Origin: a virus
IMG/VR virus record: IMGVR_UViG_3300036859_000169
Coordinates: 1 to 46,629 of that record
Strand: one strand, 5' to 3'
DNA: 46,629 bases
Every line of letters starts with the position of its first letter. The stretch's first letter is position 1. Both the position numbers and the translations under genes were made by a program. Positions 1-35,690 of this stretch are shown here, in pieces. The notes beneath the pieces were generated by a model that did no database searches, was not told the origin of the DNA, and worked only from the letters and a program-made list of their open reading frames with translations.

Positions 1-263
1 GGAGTTGGCGTTTTGCAGCGAGAGATAGGTGCGGTTGGTACCGTCGCCGGCCGTAGTGTAGACGAGCTCTCCGGCGGAATAGGACGTGCCGCTCGAGTAC
101 AGCGACACCGTCATCGGACCGAAATACTCGATCCAAGGCGGGACCGGCGGTATACCGAGGGCCTCACCGTTGCCGGGCTGGTGATTGAGATTGTCCCGGC
201 TCTGGGAAATCCAGAGCTGGCCGGACGAGTCCGACACGATGGAGCCGACGAAATAGGTCGGGA
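1..263. repeat. Left copy of the assembly overlap (circular junction)
   Basis: Bases 1-263 align without gaps to 46367-46629. Bases 137-263 are exactly identical (127 bases) and bases 1-136 carry nine substitutions. A 127-base exact overlap is what a k=127 de Bruijn assembler leaves on a circular contig. All nine differences fall at third codon positions of the tail gene that runs through both copies and all are synonymous, so 1-136 is best read as a second strain's allele of 46367-46502 rather than as a true terminal repeat. Confidence 0.85.
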
Positions 264-507
264 ACGACGACCATAGCGACGGGGCGAGCAGCATGGTGTT
301 GGCGTCGATCGCCCGCAGGATGGCCTTGCGGATGGCGAAGCGCCAGATGTTGCGGCGCAACTCGGCCTTGCGGACCTTGTCGTAGACGCGCGCGCAAATG
401 CGGGTGTTCTTGCTCGGCTCGGTGAATCCGAGCGTGGTGTCGATGGGATCGGCGCCGACGTGGTCCAACGCCCGGTTCGCGATGTCTACGGCATTTTGGA
501 AGCTCAT
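1..507 (-). CDS. Tail tubular protein A-like protein, N-terminal part (continues at right window end)
   Basis: This is the N-terminal part of a 440-residue protein whose remainder lies at 45551-46629. The frame is continuous through the overlap: residue 91 here equals the first residue of the right-hand open frame. It is expected to form the upper tail ring between portal and nozzle, as T7 gp11 does. The N terminus (MSFQNAVDIANRALDHVGAD) is typical of this family in BPP-1-like phages, and a basic helical stretch follows at residues 38-68. The ATG at 507 has no Shine-Dalgarno sequence, and a late promoter module sits 42 bases upstream, so the mRNA is predicted to be leaderless. The assignment is good; the exact family is from memory of homologues. 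Confidence 0.8.
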   Translation of the reverse strand, partial: MSFQNAVDIANRALDHVGADPIDTTLGFTEPSKNTRICARVYDKVRKAELRRNIWRFAIRKAILRAIDANTMLLAPSLWSSFPTYFVGSIVSDSSGQLWISQSRDNLNHQPGNGEALGIPPVPPWIEYFGPMTVSLYSSGTSYSAGELVYTTAGDGTNRTYLSLQNANS

Positions 508-549
508 GGCGGGGCAGAATGGCCGCCGCCCCTATTGCCGCAACGCACC
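507..549 (-). promoter_or_regulatory. Late promoter module, copy 1 (tail protein A)
   Basis: Read on the minus strand, GGTGCGTTGCGGC starts at 549, directly at the stop codon of the upstream gene. After 14 nt comes CCATTCTGCC. If TTGCGG (543-538) is the -35 box and ATTCTG (520-515) the -10 box, the spacer is 17 and the start point is 508, one base before the ATG at 507. The start of the box overlaps a short palindrome (GCACCTA, tc, TAGGTGC on the plus strand). Confidence 0.6.
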
Positions 550-2707: not shown

Positions 2708-3625
2708 CTATGGCGTCACGTCGGCGGCGGCCGATGAGTCGGCGCAGAGCGCTTGCAGCAGCCGCCCCGGCTCCAACCGCGTCGCGCCCGACGACATGCA
2801 GGTGTAGATCTGATAGGGCAGGCCCGAGAGGTCCTTGCGCCGATCGATGTCGTTCTCGGTGTCCTTCCAGATGCCGAGATAGAGGCCCGATTTCACGAAC
2901 GGGATGTTCTGCCGGGTGATGCCGTCGCTGGTCAGGCGCTCCGAATAGACGATGTCGAAGCCGAGGAAGCGCGTGACCTTGCCCTCGACCAGAGTCGGCT
3001 TGTCGGAAAAGTCGGTCGAGACCACCTGCACCTGGTTGAGCAGATCGCTCTCGCCCTGCGAGTTGGTGACCCAGGTCAGGGTCTCGGCTTCGAGATCGAC
3101 CTGCGCCTTGCGGAAGATGCGCTTGGCCTCGATCATCTTGGCGACGGTGAGGCCCGACGCGGCGGCGGAGCCGAAGGTCGAGGCGATTTGATAGAGCGTG
3201 GTGTTGAAGGTCTCGGTGGTGAAGGCCGAGGCATCGACGCCGAGCGAGGCGACGGCGAAGGCCGAACTGATGAGGCGGTCATCCCACTCGCGCGAGACGG
3301 CGGCGGCGGCGACATCGGAATACTGCGACGTCGGCTCGATCGCGGTCTTGAGCTTGTCGAACGTGTCGATGAGCTGGTTGGCATCGCGATCGACGGGGAA
3401 CACCCAGCGCCGGGTGAAGTCCACATCCTGCCGGCCGATCGGGGCGAAGCGGCCCGCCGGTGGCTTCATCTGGATGGCGCCGATGTACTGGATCGGCGAT
3501 GCCTGCTTGCCGACATGGAAACCCTCCATGCACCGGCCGCGCAGCTTCGATTGCCGCTGCTGCAGCTTCAGCGCGAGGATGTCCGAAAACTGCGTCGTGA
3601 ATAGCTTGGGGAGATTTTCCGACAT
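2708..3625 (-). CDS. Major capsid protein (Phage_capsid_2 type)
   Basis: A 305-residue coat protein that forms the head shell. The N terminus (MSENLPKLFTTQFSDILALK) and the following stretch with residues for FHVGKQASPIQYIGAIQMK and the RRWVFPVDRDANQL motif are characteristic of the coat family found in BPP-1-like and related podophages. The ATG at 3625 is preferred to a GTG 18 codons earlier because family members start with MSEN-like sequence. It lies downstream of scaffold and portal, in the usual order. It has a long leader, about 246 nt from the predicted late promoter, containing a strong hairpin at 3822-3855. Confidence 0.85.
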   Translation of the reverse strand: MSENLPKLFTTQFSDILALKLQQRQSKLRGRCMEGFHVGKQASPIQYIGAIQMKPPAGRFAPIGRQDVDFTRRWVFPVDRDANQLIDTFDKLKTAIEPTSQYSDVAAAAVSREWDDRLISSAFAVASLGVDASAFTTETFNTTLYQIASTFGSAAASGLTVAKMIEAKRIFRKAQVDLEAETLTWVTNSQGESDLLNQVQVVSTDFSDKPTLVEGKVTRFLGFDIVYSERLTSDGITRQNIPFVKSGLYLGIWKDTENDIDRRKDLSGLPYQIYTCMSSGATRLEPGRLLQALCADSSAAADVTP

Positions 3626-3821
3626 GATCTGTCCCGCAAATGGAATGGTCCGAACGTCCGCGATCTTTCCCGTGCGCACGCGCGCGCGGAGATCATCAAA
3701 CCTTCAGCCTTTTCCTTGCGGGGGCTGTCTGTCGTCAGTCTTCGGTCTTGACCCTGGCGGGGGACCGTCGCGCCCGATCAGCCTTTCCGGAAAACCGGGA
3801 CTGAAGTTTCGGGGTAGAAGG

Positions 3822-3855
3822 ACCGGAGCCTCTGGAGAGCCGTGGAGGCTCCGGT
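3822..3855. terminator. Strong stem-loop upstream of the capsid gene
   Basis: An 11-bp perfect inverted repeat (ACCGGAGCCTC at 3822-3832, its complement at 3845-3855) with a 12-base loop. There is no clear T-tract on the minus strand, only CCTTCT. It could be a weak terminator that reduces read-through, or an mRNA processing or stabilising hairpin in the capsid leader. The 3626-3915 interval holds only this hairpin and the late promoter module; I see no convincing gene in it. Confidence 0.5.
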
Positions 3856-3870
3856 AGCGCTCTTTCCTGA

Positions 3871-3913
3871 ACGGCGCGGAGATTATCCGGGGCGGCCGAC
3901 GCCGCAACGCACC
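3871..3913 (-). promoter_or_regulatory. Late promoter module, copy 2 (capsid transcription unit)
   Basis: GGTGCGTTGCGGC on the minus strand starts at 3913, two bases after the stop of the upstream small gene. The second box is degenerate (ATAATCTCCG at the same 14-nt spacing). The predicted start near 3871 would give the capsid gene a 5' leader of about 246 nt, unlike the leaderless copies. Confidence 0.5.
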
Positions 3914-8165: not shown

Positions 8166-8504
8166 TCAGCCTTTGGCTTTGAGCGCGTCGCATCTTTCCT
8201 GGGCGGCCTTGACGGCGGCCTGCGCGGCCGAGACCTGCGCCTGGGCTGCCGCCAATTGCACCTCGGCCTCGACCTGCGCCTCCAGCGCTTCGTACGTGGC
8301 CTTGTCCTCCGGGCTCAACCGCTGGAACAGCGAGCCGGAACCGCGCTCGATCTTGCCGTCAACGCGGCCACAGCGGTCGCCGAACAGCTTGTCCTCGAGC
8401 TTGGCAAGCTGCTCCGCCGCCGATGCCTCATAATCGGACCCAGCCATGGTCTCCGGGAGAGATTCGACCTCGGGAGCCGCCGTCGCGTCGGGTTCATCGA
8501 CCAT
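8166..8504 (-). CDS. Coiled-coil protein, 112 aa
   Basis: Start at ATG 8504 with AGGAGC five bases upstream; the open frame runs further upstream only into non-coding leader. Residues 33-110 form a long charged, alanine-rich helix (QLAAAQAQVSAAQAAVKAAQ), a probable coiled coil. It is the first gene after late promoter copy 3, so it probably heads the portal-scaffold transcription unit. Function unknown. Confidence 0.6.
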   Translation of the reverse strand: MVDEPDATAAPEVESLPETMAGSDYEASAAEQLAKLEDKLFGDRCGRVDGKIERGSGSLFQRLSPEDKATYEALEAQVEAEVQLAAAQAQVSAAQAAVKAAQERCDALKAKG

Positions 8505-8563: not shown

Positions 8564-8606
8564 GCCGGGGGAACGTGGGCGGTAGGGCGCGCTGCGGCAA
8601 CGCACC
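8564..8606 (-). promoter_or_regulatory. Late promoter module, copy 3 (portal unit)
   Basis: GGTGCGTTGCCGC starts at 8606, five bases after the TerL stop codon. The second box reads CCCACGTTCC at the standard 14-nt spacing. The predicted start near 8565 gives about a 60-nt leader to the gene at 8504, which has its own Shine-Dalgarno sequence, so this copy is not leaderless. Confidence 0.5.
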
Positions 8607-10155: not shown

Positions 10156-10358
10156 TTAACCCGCCCATCCGGCGTCCCGTAAACCTCGTCGTACCAATCG
10201 GGCGAGGCCACGCGATGAAATCCGATCGCATCTTTCGTGGCCGGCAGGCGCAGCCGAGGCGTCACCGGGCCATCCGTCGGCGCGTTCCAATACCCGCGGC
10301 CGCGCTTGTTCTCGCGGTGGATCGGCCTGCTGCTCGGATGCTTTGCCCTATCCGCCAT
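10152..10358 (-). CDS. Small protein between terminase subunits, 68 aa
   Basis: A basic N terminus (about residues 1-25) is followed by a short segment ending in DWYDEVYGTPDG. It overlaps TerS by 11 bases and TerL by ATGA, so it is embedded in the terminase operon. No recognised domain. It could be a terminase accessory peptide; this is context only. Confidence 0.5.
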   Translation of the reverse strand: MADRAKHPSSRPIHRENKRGRGYWNAPTDGPVTPRLRLPATKDAIGFHRVASPDWYDEVYGTPDGRVK

Positions 10359-10956
10359 CGCGCACCACCTCGCCCTCGATCACCGACCCGCCCGCCCGCC
10401 GCTCAATCTCCGCAAGCATCTTCTCCAGCCGCGGCAGCCCCGAAAACCCGAACGCCTCCAGCAGCTTCTCCCGCGGCGCACCCATGTCCCGCATGATCCG
10501 CAAATCCTCCAGCGCCGCCGCAGTGTGGTTCATCGTCACCGAGCCGCTCACGTTCACATCCACCGCCGTCCGCTCCGAATGCCCCACCCGGTTCAGCACC
10601 ATCTCAATCGATTTCCGATGGTCCGCATGGTCCGGCTTCGCAATCAGCTTCGACAGCGCAACCACCGCCGGAATGGCCAACCCCCGCAACTCCCGCCCCG
10701 ATACCTCCGTCATCGCCTCAAGCACGTCCTCGCGGTGCAGCAACCCGTGCGCCCGCACCTTCGCCCCCTCCTTCACGTCCGAATACCCAGCGTCCCGCGC
10801 CGCCTGCGCACCGTTCTCCTTCCCGTCGTACAGCGCATTCATCAGGTACGCCCACACAAACCGACGCTCGCGCTCCCGCAACGCCAGCATCTTCGGGCCA
10901 AACTGCCCCCAGTCAGGGAATGTCATCGGAGGCCGCGGCTGAAGAGGAGGAACCAT
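10348..10956 (-). CDS. terS: Terminase small subunit
   Basis: A 202-residue DNA-recognition subunit of the packaging machine. The N-terminal part (residues 25-75) has the ERERRFVWAYLMNALYDGK and AARDAGYS pattern of Terminase_2-type small subunits, a helix-turn-helix. A helical oligomerisation region follows, and the C terminus would contact TerL. The ATG at 10956 has no Shine-Dalgarno sequence, but it lies 42 bases from a late promoter box, exactly as in other late genes, which favours it over the ATG at 10926. It heads the late region. Confidence 0.75.
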   Translation of the reverse strand: MVPPLQPRPPMTFPDWGQFGPKMLALRERERRFVWAYLMNALYDGKENGAQAARDAGYSDVKEGAKVRAHGLLHREDVLEAMTEVSGRELRGLAIPAVVALSKLIAKPDHADHRKSIEMVLNRVGHSERTAVDVNVSGSVTMNHTAAALEDLRIMRDMGAPREKLLEAFGFSGLPRLEKMLAEIERRAGGSVIEGEVVRDGG

Positions 10957-10998
10957 ACCAACAACAGTCCGGTAACTTGTTATCCGCCGCAACGCACC
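10956..10998 (-). promoter_or_regulatory. Late promoter module, copy 4 (terminase)
   Basis: GGTGCGTTGCGGC begins at 10998 on the minus strand; a 17-nt spacer from TTGCGG leads to GACTGT, the least conserved second box. Predicted start 10957, one base before the TerS ATG. This copy would open the whole packaging and head region. Confidence 0.55.
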
Positions 10999-12023: not shown

Positions 12024-12611
12024 TTACGTTGCCGCGCGTGGTTCGTGGCTTGGCTCGCGCACGCTCCCTGATTTGGGCGAGGTCGTCAACGCACCGTCAT
12101 TGAGCGCGGCGAGTGCGTCTCTTTTCATTTGTGCACGAACAGCTCGATCTCGGCGCCATGCGCGCCAACGCGATTTTGCGGCCTTGGATTGATGTTCCCG
12201 GAGCTGCTCTGGTGTGAGTAATTTAAACCGGGCTCGACCACCACTTGAGCCCCATTTGGCGCGCATTTCTCGCATAGTGCCTAGTGCCTTGGCATTCCGG
12301 TAGTGATTGGCGGTCCTTACGGCCCTTTTATCCCGCTTTGCGGTGCGTCTGATTCGGGTCTTGCGCTGCTCATCCTCGATCAGGGTCATGGCGTAGCCGA
12401 GCGCGCCGAGCAGCGGGAACAAGGTGACTGGGCCGATACCCTTAACCGGCGGCGTGGCCAGCAATTTCGAGGCGTGGCCGGATGTGAAGCCGGCGAGCTC
12501 GTCGAGGACCTCACGCGAGATGTTGAGTTCCTCGGCGCGCTTGCGCAGCGCCATGACCAGGTCGAGCTGGTCGCGCACGACGGCGATCTGGCGCGGCTCG
12601 CTCACGGCCAT
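12024..12611 (-). CDS. Helix-turn-helix protein, 195 aa
   Basis: Residues 5-75 resemble an XRE-like DNA-binding domain (RDQLDLVMALRKRAEELNIS, then LDELAGFTSGHASKLL, then GPVTLFPLLGALGYAMTLIED), a type often seen in alphaproteobacterial phages. Residues 80-165 are extremely basic, with an AAKSRWRAWRRDRAV segment. GGGAG lies four bases before the ATG at 12611. It lies near the end of the early-left operon and is a candidate regulator of the late promoter modules; that role is inference. Confidence 0.6.
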   Translation of the reverse strand: MAVSEPRQIAVVRDQLDLVMALRKRAEELNISREVLDELAGFTSGHASKLLATPPVKGIGPVTLFPLLGALGYAMTLIEDEQRKTRIRRTAKRDKRAVRTANHYRNAKALGTMREMRAKWGSSGGRARFKLLTPEQLREHQSKAAKSRWRAWRRDRAVRAQMKRDALAALNDGALTTSPKSGSVREPSHEPRAAT

Positions 12612-12709
12612 GTGCTCCCGTTGATCCAGCCCTGCGCGATCCACCACAGGGCGTAGATGCCGAGTGCGGCGGCAGCGAAGATCAGCAGCACGGCGAGGTG
12701 CACGGTCAT
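12602..12709 (-). CDS. Single-span membrane peptide, 35 aa
   Basis: A 35-residue frame between two larger genes: residues 3-28 are a clear membrane span (HLAVLLIFAAAALGIYALWW) and the C terminus is short and polar. Its ATG overlaps the upstream stop (ATGA) and its end overlaps the start of the HTH gene, which supports translation. It might be a small membrane effector; function unknown. Confidence 0.5.
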   Translation of the reverse strand: MTVHLAVLLIFAAAALGIYALWWIAQGWINGSTWP

Positions 12710-13335
12710 GTCGGCTCGCCCTCCAGTGGCTTCGCGTAGAGCGCTTTCAATTCGTCCGCGCTGTATCTGCGCAGTCCTGATTTGATGACCTTCGGCTGTT
12801 CGTCGCGATCGGTGTAGATGAACATGGGCACCCAGACGCCGCGCGGATCGAAGCGCGAAGATTGCGGATTTTGCTTAGCCCATTCAGCCATTTGCTCGTA
12901 GGCGGGCGCATTGAAGGGCACCAGCAGATTTGCGCGCGCGGTCGGATCGACGGGCCGCGGCGCGCGCTCCTCAAATCGCATGCTCGAAAAGCGTTTCAGA
13001 CGATCCGCGCGCGCTTTTTCAGCGTCGCAGAATTCCACGATCTCGGCGACGGAAGGCGGGAATTTGCACTTGCGGACGATGCCTGAAAGTGGGCTGCAAC
13101 ACTCACGGATCACCGGATCGGAATATCGCTCAAGCACTGTGCCGAGCAGCGCCAGGAATGCATCCGGATCGGCGAAATCATCCCTTCGGTAGGAGCCGTA
13201 CACTTGGCGCGCTTGGCCCGAAATCCAAGCTGAGCGGCTTGGGTCCGCTGGATCCGGGGACGTAGGCGCGCGCTGCTGCTGGTCCTCCGAAATGGTCGAT
13301 GAACCTGTCGGCTGCTGCGAGAAGAGATCGCTCAT
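12706..13335 (-). CDS. Replication-associated protein, 209 aa (possible loader)
   Basis: Placed directly after the O-like replication gene, in the slot where many temperate phages encode a helicase loader or partner. The N terminus is a Gln/Ser/Pro-rich linker (1-35); residues 55-115 carry a helical region with FPPSVAEIVEFCDAEK. No Walker motif is seen, so it is not a DnaC-type ATPase. AAGGA lies three bases before the ATG. The first 158 bases overlap the end of the O-like gene in another frame. Role inferred from neighbours. Confidence 0.5.
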   Translation of the reverse strand: MSDLFSQQPTGSSTISEDQQQRAPTSPDPADPSRSAWISGQARQVYGSYRRDDFADPDAFLALLGTVLERYSDPVIRECCSPLSGIVRKCKFPPSVAEIVEFCDAEKARADRLKRFSSMRFEERAPRPVDPTARANLLVPFNAPAYEQMAEWAKQNPQSSRFDPRGVWVPMFIYTDRDEQPKVIKSGLRRYSADELKALYAKPLEGEPT

Positions 13336-13900
13336 CGTCCTTGCCTTTCCGTCCTGTGATGGTGCGCACGCGGTTGCGCCATGTCGCCGGCCAATCGAGC
13401 TTGGTTCCGCGCTGGCCTGGCACGCCTATCCAGTAGTCGACGAATTCCGCCCACGCTGTTTCGATCTTGTGCGCTGGCATGCCGAGTTGCAGCGCGGCGT
13501 CGCGGTCAATGTCGGTGATCGGCAGGCCGACAGTCAGCCGGGTGCCTCGCGCGCGCGCAACCACCTCTTTCTTACTTTCTGTAGTTGGTAGAGAGTTAGA
13601 AGAAGAAAGAAAGGAAGAAAGATCACAGCGCGAATTGTGATTGTCCGGGACGTCTTTTGGGACATCAGGGACATTCGCAGGCGGCAATTCGGCATCGTTT
13701 GCTTCCGAATTACCGTTGTCTTCGTTAGACTTATTCGATCTATATCGCCTCTTACGGTCTCGCTCGTAATGCCGAACTGTCCCGGACACCTCGGCGGACA
13801 TTCGGGACAATTCCACAGTTAGGTTTGCCACGCGCTGTAGCAATTCCGGGTCCGTCAGCCCGGCGCGCACGAGATCAGCGATGAGTGTTTCATCGGTCAC
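13178..13900 (-). CDS. Replication protein O-like / DnaT-like
   Basis: The C-terminal region (about 120-190) has the pattern AALQLGMPAHKIETAWAEFV, then DYWIGVPGQRGTKLDWPATW and RNRVRTITGR. Similar helical segments end in a W..TWRNW/R motif in phage replication initiators and DnaT-like primosome proteins. The middle (55-120) is low-complexity Asn/Asp/Ser-rich. The gene carries repeated GGGACAT-type sequences, which may be the origin. Its stop lies inside the next gene. Replication role is likely; initiator versus primosome function is not resolved. Confidence 0.6.
   Translation of the reverse strand: MTDETLIADLVRAGLTDPELLQRVANLTVELSRMSAEVSGTVRHYERDRKRRYRSNKSNEDNGNSEANDAELPPANVPDVPKDVPDNHNSRCDLSSFLSSSNSLPTTESKKEVVARARGTRLTVGLPITDIDRDAALQLGMPAHKIETAWAEFVDYWIGVPGQRGTKLDWPATWRNRVRTITGRKGKDDERSLLAAADRFIDHFGGPAAARAYVPGSSGPKPLSLDFGPSAPSVRLLPKG
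13640..13816. repeat. Candidate replication origin with iteron-like repeats
   Basis: Within the O-like gene are two clusters of GGGACAT-type units: TGGGACATCAGGGACATTCG near 13660-13679, with GTCCGGGACGTC just before it (13644-13655), and CTGTCCCGGACAC with GGACATTCGGGACA near 13779-13811. They flank a relatively AT-rich stretch (13680-13760), and an A/G-rich tract lies at 13588-13623. Phage origins are often located inside the initiator gene, as in lambda. The assignment is inferred. Confidence 0.35.
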
Positions 13901-14211
13901 GGTCGCCGCTCGATGCTGGATCCATTGCCCACAGCCGCCGCGTCTCCGTCGCTCTCAACGTCGAAGGTCTCCAGCAGCGCGCCCATGGCCTCGTGCGCAC
14001 GGCGCAGGCTGTGCATGACGGGGCCAAGGCGCGCGTCGGCTTTCAGCACTGCGTTGTCCATGACTTCATAGGTGGTGAGCGCCCACCCGCATTTGCGGCA
14101 GCGTCGGCGCCGGCGGATCGATGCGCGGCTGTGGTAATGGGTCGCGCGCGAGTCCTTCACGTCCATGCGAGAGTCGCAGTTGGGACACGGAAAGCCGACG
14201 GACTCGGTCAT
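13897..14211 (-). CDS. NrdR-like zinc-ribbon protein, 104 aa
   Basis: Residues 9-50 match the zinc ribbon of the NrdR repressor: CPNCDSRMDVKDSRATHYHS, then IRRRRRCRKCGWALTTYEVM, with cysteines 9, 12, 38 and 41. The ATP-cone domain that follows in real NrdR is absent; instead there is a helical tail. It may bind DNA near nucleotide-metabolism or phage promoters. It overlaps both neighbours by ATGA. Zinc-ribbon call is firm; regulatory role is inferred. Confidence 0.7.
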   Translation of the reverse strand: MTESVGFPCPNCDSRMDVKDSRATHYHSRASIRRRRRCRKCGWALTTYEVMDNAVLKADARLGPVMHSLRRAHEAMGALLETFDVESDGDAAAVGNGSSIERRP

Positions 14212-15208: not shown

Positions 15209-15405
15209 GCATAAACCGCCATCACCGAGAGTTCGATCGGGCCGTTGATTGGCCCCTGGCCGTTGAGCGCGCGCTGACAGAACATCCGCAGCGCGCCCAT
15301 GTAGTTTCGCTGCTTGGCAGGGGTAAACCGATGGGCGGTCTTGCCCCCCGCCGCACGCGCCCAAGGAACAGCTTCCCCGGGCAGCGTGAATTCGATTTCG
15401 CTCAC
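14971..15405 (-). CDS. rusA: RusA-type Holliday junction resolvase
   Basis: A 144-residue endonuclease that cuts four-way DNA junctions in recombination and replication. Diagnostic features are the N-terminal FTLPGEAVPWARAAGG strand, the WPKSLTSRKRALPGAQWKTS region, and the active-site line RADVDNLTKMVGDALN (conserved Asp residues and Lys), followed by WRDDSQI. Length fits the family. The ATG overlaps the stop of the upstream gene (ATGA); its 3' half also encodes the N terminus of the methyltransferase in another frame. Confidence 0.88.
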   Translation of the reverse strand: MSEIEFTLPGEAVPWARAAGGKTAHRFTPAKQRNYMGALRMFCQRALNGQGPINGPIELSVMAVYAWPKSLTSRKRALPGAQWKTSRADVDNLTKMVGDALNTVAWRDDSQITSLHAWKMFGDVPRLVVKIRSLDSSPVATAPS

Positions 15406-16010
15406 TGCGGCATTGCAGGCGCAGCAGGCATGTTCTCGGGCGGCGCGGCGAAAGGTGGATCACTCACGTCCGCAGGATCGAGCTCAGCCTCAACGGGCGC
15501 GGTCGGCGCCTTCTGGAAAGCTGACGCCAGGATCCCCTGGCCGTCCTGCCAGCCGGCCATCCACGCCGCGAATTGCGGAACGGACGGATCGTGCGGATTG
15601 TTGCAGGGCCCGCCCTCGAGGCCAATGCGCTTGCCTTCGGCGTGGGCGCGATCTTCGCCAGGCCGGCGGTCTTCCGGGAATAGCTCGGCGGTCTCACCGA
15701 CGTTCGTGCCGCTCCAGCGCAGCACTTGCGCGGTTTCGGCCATCTCGGCCTTGAGCTGGGACTCGCCTTCGGGCGATCGCGCCAGAATGGTCTTCTTGAC
15801 CTTGGCCACGCTGTCGTCTTCGGCCTTGATGCGCTTGCCGACGTTCTTGATTTCCGCATCGGCCTTCTTCTTGGCGCCGAGTGCGACCTCGTATTCGCGG
15901 CAGTGCCGATAGTGCAGCGCGCGCTTCTCGTCCTCGGTCAGTCCTGAGTTCTTGAGCGGCTGATCCTTGATCGCGTCTTCGATGTCGGCCTGTTTCTTCC
16001 GCCGTCCCAT
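15402..16010 (-). CDS. Early protein with C-terminal RMF-like motif, 202 aa
   Basis: Start at ATG 16010 with GGAG ten bases upstream; the frame extends further only without support. Residues 1-110 are charged and helical (RALHYRHCREYEVALGAKKK and DAEIKNVGKRIKAEDDS), resembling rhizobial phage proteins of unknown function. Residues 135-170 (EGKRIGLEGGPCNNPHDPSV, then AAWMAGWQDGQG) look like the motif of the ribosome modulation factor family. A Pro/Ala tail follows. A ribosome or DNA-binding role is not established. Confidence 0.55.
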   Translation of the reverse strand: MGRRKKQADIEDAIKDQPLKNSGLTEDEKRALHYRHCREYEVALGAKKKADAEIKNVGKRIKAEDDSVAKVKKTILARSPEGESQLKAEMAETAQVLRWSGTNVGETAELFPEDRRPGEDRAHAEGKRIGLEGGPCNNPHDPSVPQFAAWMAGWQDGQGILASAFQKAPTAPVEAELDPADVSDPPFAAPPENMPAAPAMPQ

Positions 16011-16061
16011 GATAATTTTCTCCGCTGCGAATGAGGGGTGCCGCACGCACGACAACTGGAG

Positions 16062-16596: not shown

Positions 16597-16821
16597 TCAT
16601 GCGCACGCCTCAGGGCACTCATCCGGCCACAAGTCAGGGCGCAACTCACTTCGATGGATACCCGTCGCCTGCTCGATCGGCAGCACGAATTCAGCTGGCA
16701 CCCCGCGTTTGGATTTGGTGAGCCAATACGAGACCATCTGCTGTCTCGTGCCGATGCGGTCGGCCAAGGGCTTTTGCCCCCCGGCAACATCGCATGCACG
16801 GCGTAGCGCGTCTCTCGACAT
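16597..16821 (-). CDS. Cro/YdaS-like transcriptional regulator
   Basis: A 74-residue single-domain DNA-binding protein: LRRACDVAGGQKPLADRIGT, RQQMVSYWLTKSKRGVPAEF, LPIEQATGIHRSELRPDLW. These are the hallmarks of the YdaS/Cro-like family that opposes the repressor in temperate phages. It is divergent from the CI-type gene and is the first gene of the leftward operon. The predicted promoter starts transcription exactly at the ATG (16821) and there is no Shine-Dalgarno sequence, so the mRNA should be leaderless, as lambda cI is from its maintenance promoter. Confidence 0.78.
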   Translation of the reverse strand: MSRDALRRACDVAGGQKPLADRIGTRQQMVSYWLTKSKRGVPAEFVLPIEQATGIHRSELRPDLWPDECPEACA

Positions 16822-23896: not shown

Positions 23897-24223
23897 ATGA
23901 CCGCCCCTGCCCCAGAGACCGTCGAGCGCGAACGCGAGAAGCTCTACGTCACCGACGCGGAGCTGATCCGGCGCTTGGGCGTTCCTGAGAAGGAAGGGCG
24001 GCGGGTGCTACGCGAATTGACGACCAAGTCTCTAGGCTTCCCGAAGAAACAAAAGTTGTTTGGAGATCGCTACTATTGGCCTGCCATCCGCGCCTACTTC
24101 GACCGGATCAATGGTATGCTTCCGGTCGACGCGGCTAGGCCGATCACCGAAAACCGGGACCGCTCCCGGCTGCCGCGTCATTCCCAGCGGAGCCACCAAG
24201 CGGAGGGGCACCCCGATGAATGA
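23897..24223 (+). CDS. Putative excisionase / winged-helix DNA-binding protein
   Basis: Residues 16-75 resemble AlpA/Xis-like DNA-binding domains: LYVTDAELIRRLGVPEKEGR, then RVLRELTTKSLGFPKKQKLF and DRYYWPAIRAYFDRI. It lies immediately upstream of and overlaps the integrase gene by 8 bases, the usual place for an excision factor. The C-terminal 35 residues are basic and disordered. Function inferred from fold and context. Confidence 0.6.
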   Translation: MTAPAPETVEREREKLYVTDAELIRRLGVPEKEGRRVLRELTTKSLGFPKKQKLFGDRYYWPAIRAYFDRINGMLPVDAARPITENRDRSRLPRHSQRSHQAEGHPDE

Positions 24224-32292: not shown

Positions 32293-32556
32293 TCAAGACA
32301 CCACGGCCGGGGCCTCTTTCAAGACCTCCGGCTCGACCGTCTGCTCGACGACCTTCTTGATTTCGGCCGGCGTGGTCTTCTTGCGCTCGCGCAGCACGAC
32401 GCCAGCGAGGCCGCCGGCGCTCATGCCCACGCCCATGATCGCCTGCCAATATTCGGGGGCGATGACGACACCGAGTCCGGTTAACATCGTGCCGAGCGAT
32501 ACCCAAGTCGATGGTTCCTGGAGCCGGGCGACGGCGTATTCGAGAATGTTGTCCAT
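32293..32556 (-). CDS. Putative holin, 87 aa
   Basis: Residues 12-60 include two hydrophobic segments (TWVSLGTMLTGLGVVIAP and IMGVGMSAGGLAGVVLRE) and a conserved EPSTWVSLGTMLTGLGVVIA pattern known from phage holin-like proteins beside endolysins; a charged cytoplasmic tail follows (KKTTPAEIKKVVEQTVEPEV). It would make membrane holes that release the endolysin. Start ATG 32556 has no good Shine-Dalgarno sequence but matches the leaderless late promoter geometry. It heads the lysis unit. Confidence 0.65.
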   Translation of the reverse strand: MDNILEYAVARLQEPSTWVSLGTMLTGLGVVIAPEYWQAIMGVGMSAGGLAGVVLRERKKTTPAEIKKVVEQTVEPEVLKEAPAVVS

Positions 32557-32597
32557 GCTCGGCAGGATGGCGCGGTGCCCGGTTGTCGCAACGCACC
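32556..32597 (-). promoter_or_regulatory. Late promoter module, copy 5 (lysis genes)
   Basis: GGTGCGTTGCGAC starts at 32597; CCATCCTGCC follows at the 14-nt spacing. With TTGCGA as -35 and ATCCTG (32568-32563) as -10, the start point falls exactly on the A of the holin ATG at 32556. Confidence 0.6.
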
Positions 32598-34139: not shown

Positions 34140-35330
34140 TCAAAATTCCGTGTTTGCAACCAGCGTGCAATTGGTGACGCTGCCAGACGTCGCCGTTCCA
34201 GCGACCGTCCGCAGCCAACCAGTGACGCGATAGAAGCCTGGTGGGACGGCGGGGAATGGAAGCTCTGCGACGACGGCCAATGCGACGTTGCCGGAGATGT
34301 CATAGATATCCTGGAAATAATCCGGCGCGGTCGCGCTGTTCTGATAGGAGAGACCAAAGTCGATCTTATTGAGCGCAGCGCTTCCCACTACTCCGCAAGC
34401 CGCGCGCACCGACGGCATTGCATCCGCCCAGATCAGAAAATCAAGCGTGCCGGTGAGCTTCACCCAAGTATTCAACAGCCCGCCTGTATTTCCGAGCGCG
34501 GAATTAGTCAGGTCCACCCGCCCCCGATTATACCAAGAGACGCATAGCTCATTATTGGCGCTACCCTGAATGGTGCCGTTGTGCTTGACGCATTGCCCGA
34601 TCAGCGGCGTGTTGGTGTAGCCGGACAGAATATTGAAGCCGACCGTGCTGTCCACGGAGTAGCCCGTCGTCGTGGCAACAAACTTGCCGATCGTGCAGTC
34701 AGCATCGAAGAACTGGAAGCCTATGTAGTGCGGTGTGTCCGCGGCAAAGGACTGATTCGCCACGTTGTTGATGGTGATGTTGTCCGAGCGCCCCGCCACC
34801 GCGCCGTAGACGAGCCCACCCGACGTGTAATTATTGACGAACACCGAGCCCACCAGATCGAACTGCGTGGAGTTGATGACGGTGATCTGCCATACTTCAT
34901 TGGCTTCGACCGTGCCGCCGACCTGTGTGATCCAAACGAACTGGCCAGTGGCGAGCGGGCGCGTCGTCGCGGCGTGCGAGATGCGGATCACCCCGCCCGC
35001 GTTGCCTGCGCTCGTGATGGCCACCGTCTCCGGTATCAGGAAGGTCTTGTATGCGCCCGTGGCCGTGCAGTAGCCGCGGAAGGCGTTGCCGTTGTAGGCG
35101 ATCAGGCCCATCCCCGTCGTAGTGCCGAGATTGATGAACTCGACCGTGCCGTGGGTAGTCGGCGCCGCACCGATTCCGAGCTGCACCCCCAGCGTCGCGA
35201 ACGGGATGGCCTGCGACGGGCCGGCGTTGGGGGGCATGCGCCCGACCACGGTGCCCGGGGGCAGTGTCTGCTGGGCGAGGACAGGGCCGGCAAACGCCAG
35301 CGCCGCCAGGAGGGCAAGGATGCGTTTCAT
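34140..35330 (-). CDS. Fibre-type protein with signal peptide, 396 aa
   Basis: Starts with a signal peptide (MKRILALLAALAFAGPVLAQ) and then TLPPGTVVGRMPPNAGPSQA, a pattern used at the start of fibre proteins in rhizobial phages. The rest is beta-rich (many N-G, S-A and T repeats) and ends with a carbohydrate-binding-like fold segment (PAVPPGFYRVTGWLRTVAG). It probably forms part of the adsorption apparatus. Predicted leaderless from a late promoter. Alternatively it is an exported prophage surface protein. Confidence 0.6.
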   Translation of the reverse strand: MKRILALLAALAFAGPVLAQQTLPPGTVVGRMPPNAGPSQAIPFATLGVQLGIGAAPTTHGTVEFINLGTTTGMGLIAYNGNAFRGYCTATGAYKTFLIPETVAITSAGNAGGVIRISHAATTRPLATGQFVWITQVGGTVEANEVWQITVINSTQFDLVGSVFVNNYTSGGLVYGAVAGRSDNITINNVANQSFAADTPHYIGFQFFDADCTIGKFVATTTGYSVDSTVGFNILSGYTNTPLIGQCVKHNGTIQGSANNELCVSWYNRGRVDLTNSALGNTGGLLNTWVKLTGTLDFLIWADAMPSVRAACGVVGSAALNKIDFGLSYQNSATAPDYFQDIYDISGNVALAVVAELPFPAVPPGFYRVTGWLRTVAGTATSGSVTNCTLVANTEF

Positions 35331-35372
35331 GGACCGGAAGAATGGCGGGCGGGGCCTGTGCCGCAACGCACC
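35330..35372 (-). promoter_or_regulatory. Late promoter module, copy 6 (fibre genes)
   Basis: GGTGCGTTGCGGC starts at 35372, six bases after the previous stop; CCATTCTTCC follows at the same spacing. -10 ATTCTT (35343-35338) predicts a start at 35331, one base before the ATG at 35330. Confidence 0.6.
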
Positions 35373-35377
35373 CCCCG

Positions 35378-35650
35378 TTAAGGAGCGGGCTCTCCCGGTG
35401 GTCCTTGAGGGCCGGGCTCGCCCTGTGGCCCCTCCGGCCCTTGTGGCCCTTGTGGCCCGGGCTCTCCTTGAATGCCTTGCGGTCCTGCCGGTCCGACTAC
35501 CGGCTGCACTGGCACGTTCCAGAAGGCGCACCAATCGATCGCATCAACCGATGGCCAGCGCGGTATGCCGCCGGGCAGAACGCGCCGACAAGTGCCATCA
35601 ATGTAGAAATCGCAATTGGCGCAGCTCTGACCGTCGGGAGGAGATCGCAT
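35378..35650 (-). CDS. Collagen-like phage protein with Cys motif, 90 aa
   Basis: Residues 9-42 carry [14 protein letters not shown] and DWCAFW, a CxxC..C..WC motif found in many phage proteins; residues 49-88 are Gly-Pro-Gln/Glu triplets ([19 protein letters not shown]) like collagen, which trimerise in phage fibres. It is probably a fibre or a fibre-linker. The ATG at 35650 lacks a Shine-Dalgarno sequence and lies one base from the predicted transcription start. Confidence 0.7.
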
Positions 35651-35690
35651 GGTCGCAAGATGGCGGGCGGACGGGTGACCGCAACGCACC
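35650..35690 (-). promoter_or_regulatory. Late promoter module, copy 7 (collagen-like gene)
   Basis: GGTGCGTTGCGGT starts at 35690; CCATCTTGCG follows after 14 bases. The -10 candidate ATCTTG is at 35661-35656, giving a start at 35649, one base from the start codon at 35650. Divergent from the plus-strand promoter of the gene at 35709. Confidence 0.6.

Follow-up and report, generated by a model that had tools for sequence, protein, structure and literature searches.

The virion and lysis genes of a little-known group of phages from soil and freshwater are predicted to share one repeated, phage-specific promoter, and about half of the RNAs made from it would start at the start codon itself. 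The sequence module that marks this promoter is conserved across the group, has a fixed geometry and lies on the late strand, the genes spaced closely behind it lack Shine-Dalgarno sequences, and each phage carries its own variant of the box. From these features we infer promoter activity, start sites, late timing, the identity of the activator and the use of host sigma-70. In the preferred reading, to which we give a probability of about 0.68, the 45-bp module is a late promoter that belongs to the sigma-70 class and is specific to phage, served by host sigma-70 together with a phage activator that is likeliest to be an XRE protein.

The window and its relatives

The window (the whole stretch of DNA analysed, 46,629 nucleotides) comes from IMG/VR as a virus record of 46.6 kb, and its G+C content is 62%. 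Its virion module is T7-like, with a head-tail adaptor, capsid, internal virion proteins and tail proteins, and it also encodes a RecE/RecT pair and an integrase; it is the podophage-like genome of a temperate phage. The closest isolates have less than 60% protein identity to the window in terminase and portal, and the best isolate matches to its terminase include Rhizobium phages (33-36%). The host is probably an alphaproteobacterium, given the G+C content, these terminase matches and the presence in Xanthobacter of a homologue to the candidate activator. Three further features of the window were recorded: an int-alpA RNA (RF02996, E 7e-7) at 24128-24193 (+) that overlaps the start of the integrase ORF, a YdaS/Cro-like regulator at 16597-16821 (-) with CII- and repressor-like matches in PHROGs, and a 217-aa protein at 15402-16055 (-) with a weak, below cut-off match (E 8e-5) to ribosome modulation factor.

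Relatives were collected by portal search (48 loci) and capsid search (80 loci), and 20 phage records, the window included, were assembled from pieces and then oriented. Three of the 20 came from a search with the two-box pattern, and these have no match to the window terminase, portal or capsid. Counts of the core motif cover the 20 genomes and about 120 further loci, part of which overlap those genomes (about 140 sequences in total). No provirus with the window capsid protein was found in the genome collections searched, and the portal search of those collections gave one short contig without a box, whose Patescibacteria label is probably due to misbinning. Among the titles and abstracts listed in searches on the box string, on leaderless late phage promoters and on alphaproteobacterial late promoters, none describes this regulon.

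Occurrence and strand bias of the box

The first-pass annotation had listed seven 13-mers, all on the minus strand, and every one is present in the sequence at the position given for it (Table 1). The exact box GGTGCGTTGC has seven matches in the window, all on the late strand, against a chance expectation of 0.20, and none of 100 shuffled sequences reached seven. The two-box pattern GGTGCGTTGCGNC-N13..15-CCATYYT has three matches (0 expected); CCAT lies at the correct distance in four copies, as had been noted of the second box. The boxes are confined to 0.5-11 kb and 32.5-35.7 kb, and early genes are without them.

Table 1. Features of the window, with hairpin arrays of relatives
Feature	Position	Strand	Evidence or remark
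Tail tubular protein A-like gene, predicted leaderless	1-507	-	Runs off window end
Late promoter box GGTGCGTTGCGGC	537-549	-	-10 CATTCT at 516-521; ATG at 507
Major capsid protein gene	2708-3625	-	PHROG 3437, E 5e-50; scanned as 2708-3679
Predicted major capsid gene leader, 248 nt, tandem hairpins	3626-3873	-	Folding z -3.66
Conserved leader hairpin unit CAGCC-C-CC-GCAA-GG-AAAA-GGCTG	3700-3731	-	Covariance model, 37.6 bits
Late promoter box before major capsid gene	3901-3913	-	Predicted start ~3873, long leader
Late promoter box just after large terminase gene	8594-8606	-	-10 CACGTT; best window score
Small terminase subunit gene (terS), predicted leaderless	10348-10956	-	PHROG 51, E 2e-7
Palindrome TAACAAGTTA in terS promoter spacer	10973-10982	-	Once in window, 0.05 expected
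Late promoter box before terS	10986-10998	-	Poor -10; ATG 10956
Candidate late activator gene	12024-12611	-	XRE-type HTH and basic helical C-terminus; ORF extendable to 12647
Eighth candidate box GGTGCGTTGACGA, weaker	12083-12095	-	Inside 3' end of candidate regulator gene
87-aa protein gene, predicted leaderless	32293-32556	-	Pfam Phage_holin_10, E 0.04, below cut-off
Late promoter box	32585-32597	-	-10 CATCCT; ATG 32556
396-aa protein gene, predicted leaderless	34140-35330	-	Signal-peptide-like N-terminus (sequence)
Late promoter box	35360-35372	-	-10 CATTCT; ATG 35330
90-aa protein gene, predicted leaderless	35378-35650	-	Cysteine-rich N-terminus, collagen-like repeats; Pfam Collagen, E 8e-7
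Late promoter box	35678-35690	-	-10 CATCTT; ATG 35650
Hairpin arrays of relatives	L139:7082-7190, L142:5781-5846, L157:18842-18907		Capsid gene leader

Lack of conservation in close relatives had been set beforehand as a ground for refuting the regulon; the module turned out to be widely conserved. The core RGTRCGTTG occurs at 273 unique sense (late-strand) sites in the related sequences against 20 antisense sites, so that by strand the same element precedes several late operons and not early genes. In loci oriented by portal or capsid, GGTGCGTTGC was found 121 times in sense and three times in antisense, with five matches for the reversed control. These strand counts bear out the proposed restriction of the module to the late strand. 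One genome (G013) had just one good box. Of the seven contigs that were found by motif and lack the XRE protein, most are fragments, but one, a record of 259 kb, has just one match.

A two-box model trained on the relatives, with the window left out, placed all seven window boxes within its top eight, the other being the candidate at 12083-12095 (-). This eighth box is doubtful, because its score of 20.3 falls within the null range (maximum 22.1 in 20 simulated genomes). The terS copy, at 18.9, is also within the range of the 20 simulated genomes, and its standing as genuine rests on the exact box and its position, not on score.

Most of 17 relatives have a homologous promoter before the tail tubular protein A-like gene; the protein is 45-63% identical to that of 16 relatives, with start codons aligned. 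The box upstream of this gene takes forms such as GGTACGTTG, AGTGCGTTG and AGTACGTTG, and one genome (G005) carries TACGTTGCCG six times and never in antisense. Agreement in the box flanks is greater within genomes than between them (0.73 vs 0.31 at one position; 0 of 500 permutations), as would be expected if the sites of a genome were all read by a single factor. Host differences could also contribute to the variants.

Several predicted products of the late operons deserve mention. The 87-aa protein is possibly holin-like, from a weak match. Signal-peptide-like starts (e.g., MKRILALLAALAFAGPVLAQ) are seen in tail/lysis late genes at 35330, 34138 and 33031 (-), and in four relatives (L005, L008, L011 and L012) the gene directly after the box likewise has a signal-peptide-like N-terminus. 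The palindrome in the terS promoter spacer belongs to a strict TAACN2-3GTTA form that, where present in relatives, occurs once per genome, at terS (10 relatives), at varying distance from the terS box. It is a possible operator or packaging signal; as an operator of the whole regulon it was rejected, since it is found at terS only.

Anatomy of the predicted promoter

With the ATG taken as +1, the box spans roughly -41 to -32 and its TTG occupies -35 to -33. The -10 element cA(t/c)nnT lies at -12 to -7 behind a spacer that is mostly 17 bp across relatives. A at -11 is conserved in 96% and T at -7 in 84% after adjustment for spacing, which inflates the values somewhat (46-62% and 52-61% unadjusted), and C at -1 in 84% fits a pyrimidine-purine start. 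The module has the marks of the sigma-70 class, i.e., a -35/-10 pair, a spacer of 15-19 bp and conserved A-11 and T-7, and the sigma-70-like box spacing that had been proposed is upheld by A-11, T-7 and the spacer mode of 17. The assignment of a 17-base spacer holds in most relatives, but in the window itself a -10 that starts one base earlier fits better (CATTCT, CATCCT or CATCTT), with A at -11 and T at -7, and most window copies therefore have a 16-nt spacer. Apart from the terS copy, whose -10 is poor at 0.7 bits, the window copies have good -10 elements. Conservation of the -10 is equal at sites with and without an ATG at +1, for which reason the module is taken to be a promoter and not a translation signal; a translation element was rejected on this ground.

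Predicted leaderless late genes

The ATG of a long ORF lies 40-43 nt after the box start at 130 of the 273 sites. Other nearby offsets have 0-4 such ATGs each, and offsets 34-38 have none. In the window, the five copies for which the start codon had been placed at the predicted start show offsets of 42, 42, 41, 42 and 40 nt (ATGs at 507, 10956, 32556, 35330 and 35650). Shine-Dalgarno-like strings precede 3.6% of the box-spaced ATGs versus 45% of other late-strand starts (p ~1e-31), which agrees with their reported absence before the predicted leaderless genes, and the upstream regions of box-spaced genes have Shine-Dalgarno complementarity below even that of shuffled sequence. The other two window copies would feed leadered genes, as claimed: one is predicted to reach the capsid gene through a 248-nt leader, and from the post-terminase box at 8594-8606 the predicted leader runs for about 60 nt, GGAG included, up to the ATG at 8504.

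As their RNA is predicted to begin at the start codon, the box-spaced genes would need no ribosome-binding site. Caulobacter has 375 leaderless mRNAs with the ATG at the transcription start, as predicted for the phage genes, and these are translated as well as leadered mRNA (PMC4117421), so that late genes would need no leader there. The leaderless genes of Caulobacter are scattered over the genome (PMC4117421), whereas those predicted in the phages are tied to one family of late promoters.

Hairpins in the capsid gene leader

The capsid gene leaders of window-type phages contain tandem hairpins of the form NNNNN-C-CC-GCAA-GG-ACAA-NNNNN, with a GCAA loop, a fixed C / ACAA internal loop and a freely covarying outer stem. 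In an alignment of 33 units, from which units with insertions were left out, changes occur on both sides in all five outer pairs, 98% of cells are paired, and the covariation score is 0.58 versus 0.19 for shuffled units; in 67 unselected units, 84-96% pair at each outer position. A covariance model had 24 matches in 936 kb (both strands). The window match is on the late strand, within the capsid leader; the other matches, where coordinates were compared, are just upstream of a capsid gene. Rfam has no match at the window capsid leader hairpins. The array may have a role in controlling translation of the capsid gene.

The probable factor that reads the box

In the mechanism we favor, host RNA polymerase with its housekeeping sigma would contact the -10 element and a degenerate -35, which in the window reads TTGCGG, and a phage-encoded activator would bind the asymmetric box GGTGCGTTG, which overlaps and extends the -35. 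The bound activator would make the promoter active late in infection. Where the start codon is 40-43 nt from the box, transcription would begin at the A of the ATG or at most two bases off, giving a leaderless mRNA, and the remaining copies would feed leaders. The XRE protein would be the activator, placed beside or over the -35 and in contact with sigma region 4. Activators of the CI and CII types contact sigma region 4. An alphaproteobacterial precedent is GafY of the Caulobacter gene transfer agent (GTA), which acts from a distance, contacts RpoD domains 3-4 and activates at a degenerate -35 (PMC11150451).

Among regulator-like families, the XRE protein alone was detected by profile in every one of the 20 genomes, the three without window-like virion genes included. 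Its AlphaFold2 model has a pLDDT of 86.7 with the HTH confidently modelled, and the N-terminal domain matches HipB and P22 c2 in Foldseek with probability 1.00, the best E being just 5e-3. The assignment by sequence profile is weak (E 0.01); on the model, which has the five-helix HTH, the candidate belongs to the XRE/Cro-CI family. Its gene follows the replication genes (replication initiation protein-like 13178-13900; 12706-13335) and precedes terS, and in most genomes the nearest box is about 1 kb downstream. The corresponding position in lambda is occupied by Q.

A tblastn search with the XRE protein led to one phage record, Microcystis phage Mwe-JY08 (PP395640, L199), a member of the second virion lineage. 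Its genome has GTGCGTTG seven times on the late strand and once on the other (0.7 expected per strand), with at least two boxes that have an ATG at the leaderless distance; predicted leaderless starts in the record include 25515 and 36826. The early module and the promoter of this phage are in common with window-type phages. Its G+C content of 66% is, in our judgement, a poor fit to the listed host Microcystis, and its real host may be an associated alphaproteobacterium. Other XRE homologues led to no further isolates in the phage collection; one homologue is encoded on a plasmid of Xanthobacter, together with phage-like genes and a single plausible box.

Some observations count against this assignment. 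The box is asymmetric and not palindromic; palindromes are the usual targets of XRE proteins. The two virion lineages also have integrase and replication genes in common, though not every genome has them. The poor -10 of the terS copy, the single good box of G013 and the motif-bearing contigs that lack the XRE protein also speak against the preferred reading. In a Mantel test the distances of XRE protein and box were weakly correlated (r 0.21, p 0.05), and within the portal family the correlation was 0.32, not better than that of the portal itself (0.35); such covariation was rejected as proof of the activator, being weak and not specific. An Ogr-like zinc ribbon protein (13897-14211, weak Ogr_Delta match) was also rejected, since it is not among the families found in at least five of the 20 genomes. 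The XRE protein is most likely the activator that reads the box.

The first-pass annotation had left open whether the control lies with an activator or with a sigma factor, and the activator is now favored. An alternative sigma that reads the two boxes directly, either host-encoded or encoded by the phage and too diverged to detect, seems unlikely to us. A pair of boxes with constant spacing is what a sigma promoter looks like, and eight of the 20 genomes have sub-threshold matches to sigma-70 region 4. These matches are below cut-off, however, and the window and 11 other genomes have none at all; region 2 has no match in any of the 20, whereas 11 of 14 control genomes do match; and the housekeeping class has the same TTG at -35, A-11 and T-7. 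A phage sigma factor was set aside as neither domain was detected above cut-off in the 20 genomes, and for this reason a phage activator with host sigma-70 is preferred. A search for single-subunit (T7 type) RNA polymerase gave no match in the 20 genomes, nor in the control genomes.

The activator could instead be encoded by the host, with the differences between phages reflecting differences between hosts, which could equally produce a box variant peculiar to each phage. We consider this decidedly unlikely, as the array accompanies one phage gene across two virion lineages but is absent from four isolates with a related terminase or portal and without the XRE protein (Rhizobium, Burkholderia and Stenotrophomonas phages). 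That the element acts in RNA or in DNA packaging (as a translation element, processing site or pac-like repeat) and not in transcription initiation is barely credible: its sites do fall in intergenic gaps, with a stop triplet at most 12 nt upstream at 159 of 273, but the -10 is kept irrespective of an ATG at +1, the distances match a sigma-70 promoter to the base, and many different genes lie downstream.

Comparison with other regulons and implications

The preferred reading, a phage activator acting with host sigma-70, has several partial parallels. The Ogr-Delta system of P2/P4 likewise serves several late promoters in a temperate phage through a small phage activator and host sigma-70, but Ogr sites are palindromic and near -55. 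Lambda CII, with TTGC repeats on both sides of the -35, and T4 MotA, which acts near -30 with AsiA remodelling sigma, resemble the proposed system in that a phage factor takes over recognition of the -35 region; neither regulon is known to be leaderless. The system described here differs from that of Mu C in its asymmetric box, which overlaps the -35, in a candidate that is XRE-like and not Mor/C-like, and in the leaderless mRNA predicted for half of the promoters. The likeness to phage Mu is in the use of one phage-encoded activator (here a candidate), several late promoters (Plys, PI, PP and Pmom in Mu) and host RNA polymerase (PMC4461284). GafY is similar as a phage-derived alphaproteobacterial activator that aids RpoD at many promoters whose -35 is degenerate, but it binds far upstream and requires IHF (PMC11150451).

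A bolder proposal is that an XRE repressor fold has been recast as a dedicated late activator on an asymmetric box fused to the -35, and that leaderless mRNA now carries much of the late translation in the whole family, possibly with a phage-directed change of the ribosome, for which the protein at 15402-16055 with its weak ribosome modulation factor match would be a candidate. This is a long shot; if true, the late mRNAs would compete for ribosomes differently than host mRNAs. The preferred reading would itself provide a sequence-level rule for late transcription across a large uncultivated phage group, by which start codons and operons could be called where gene finders based on Shine-Dalgarno sequences err. 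It also narrows direct tests, by binding and by reporter, to a single protein and a single short box, and these phages would offer a clean system for asking how the leaderless mRNA of late virion genes is translated.
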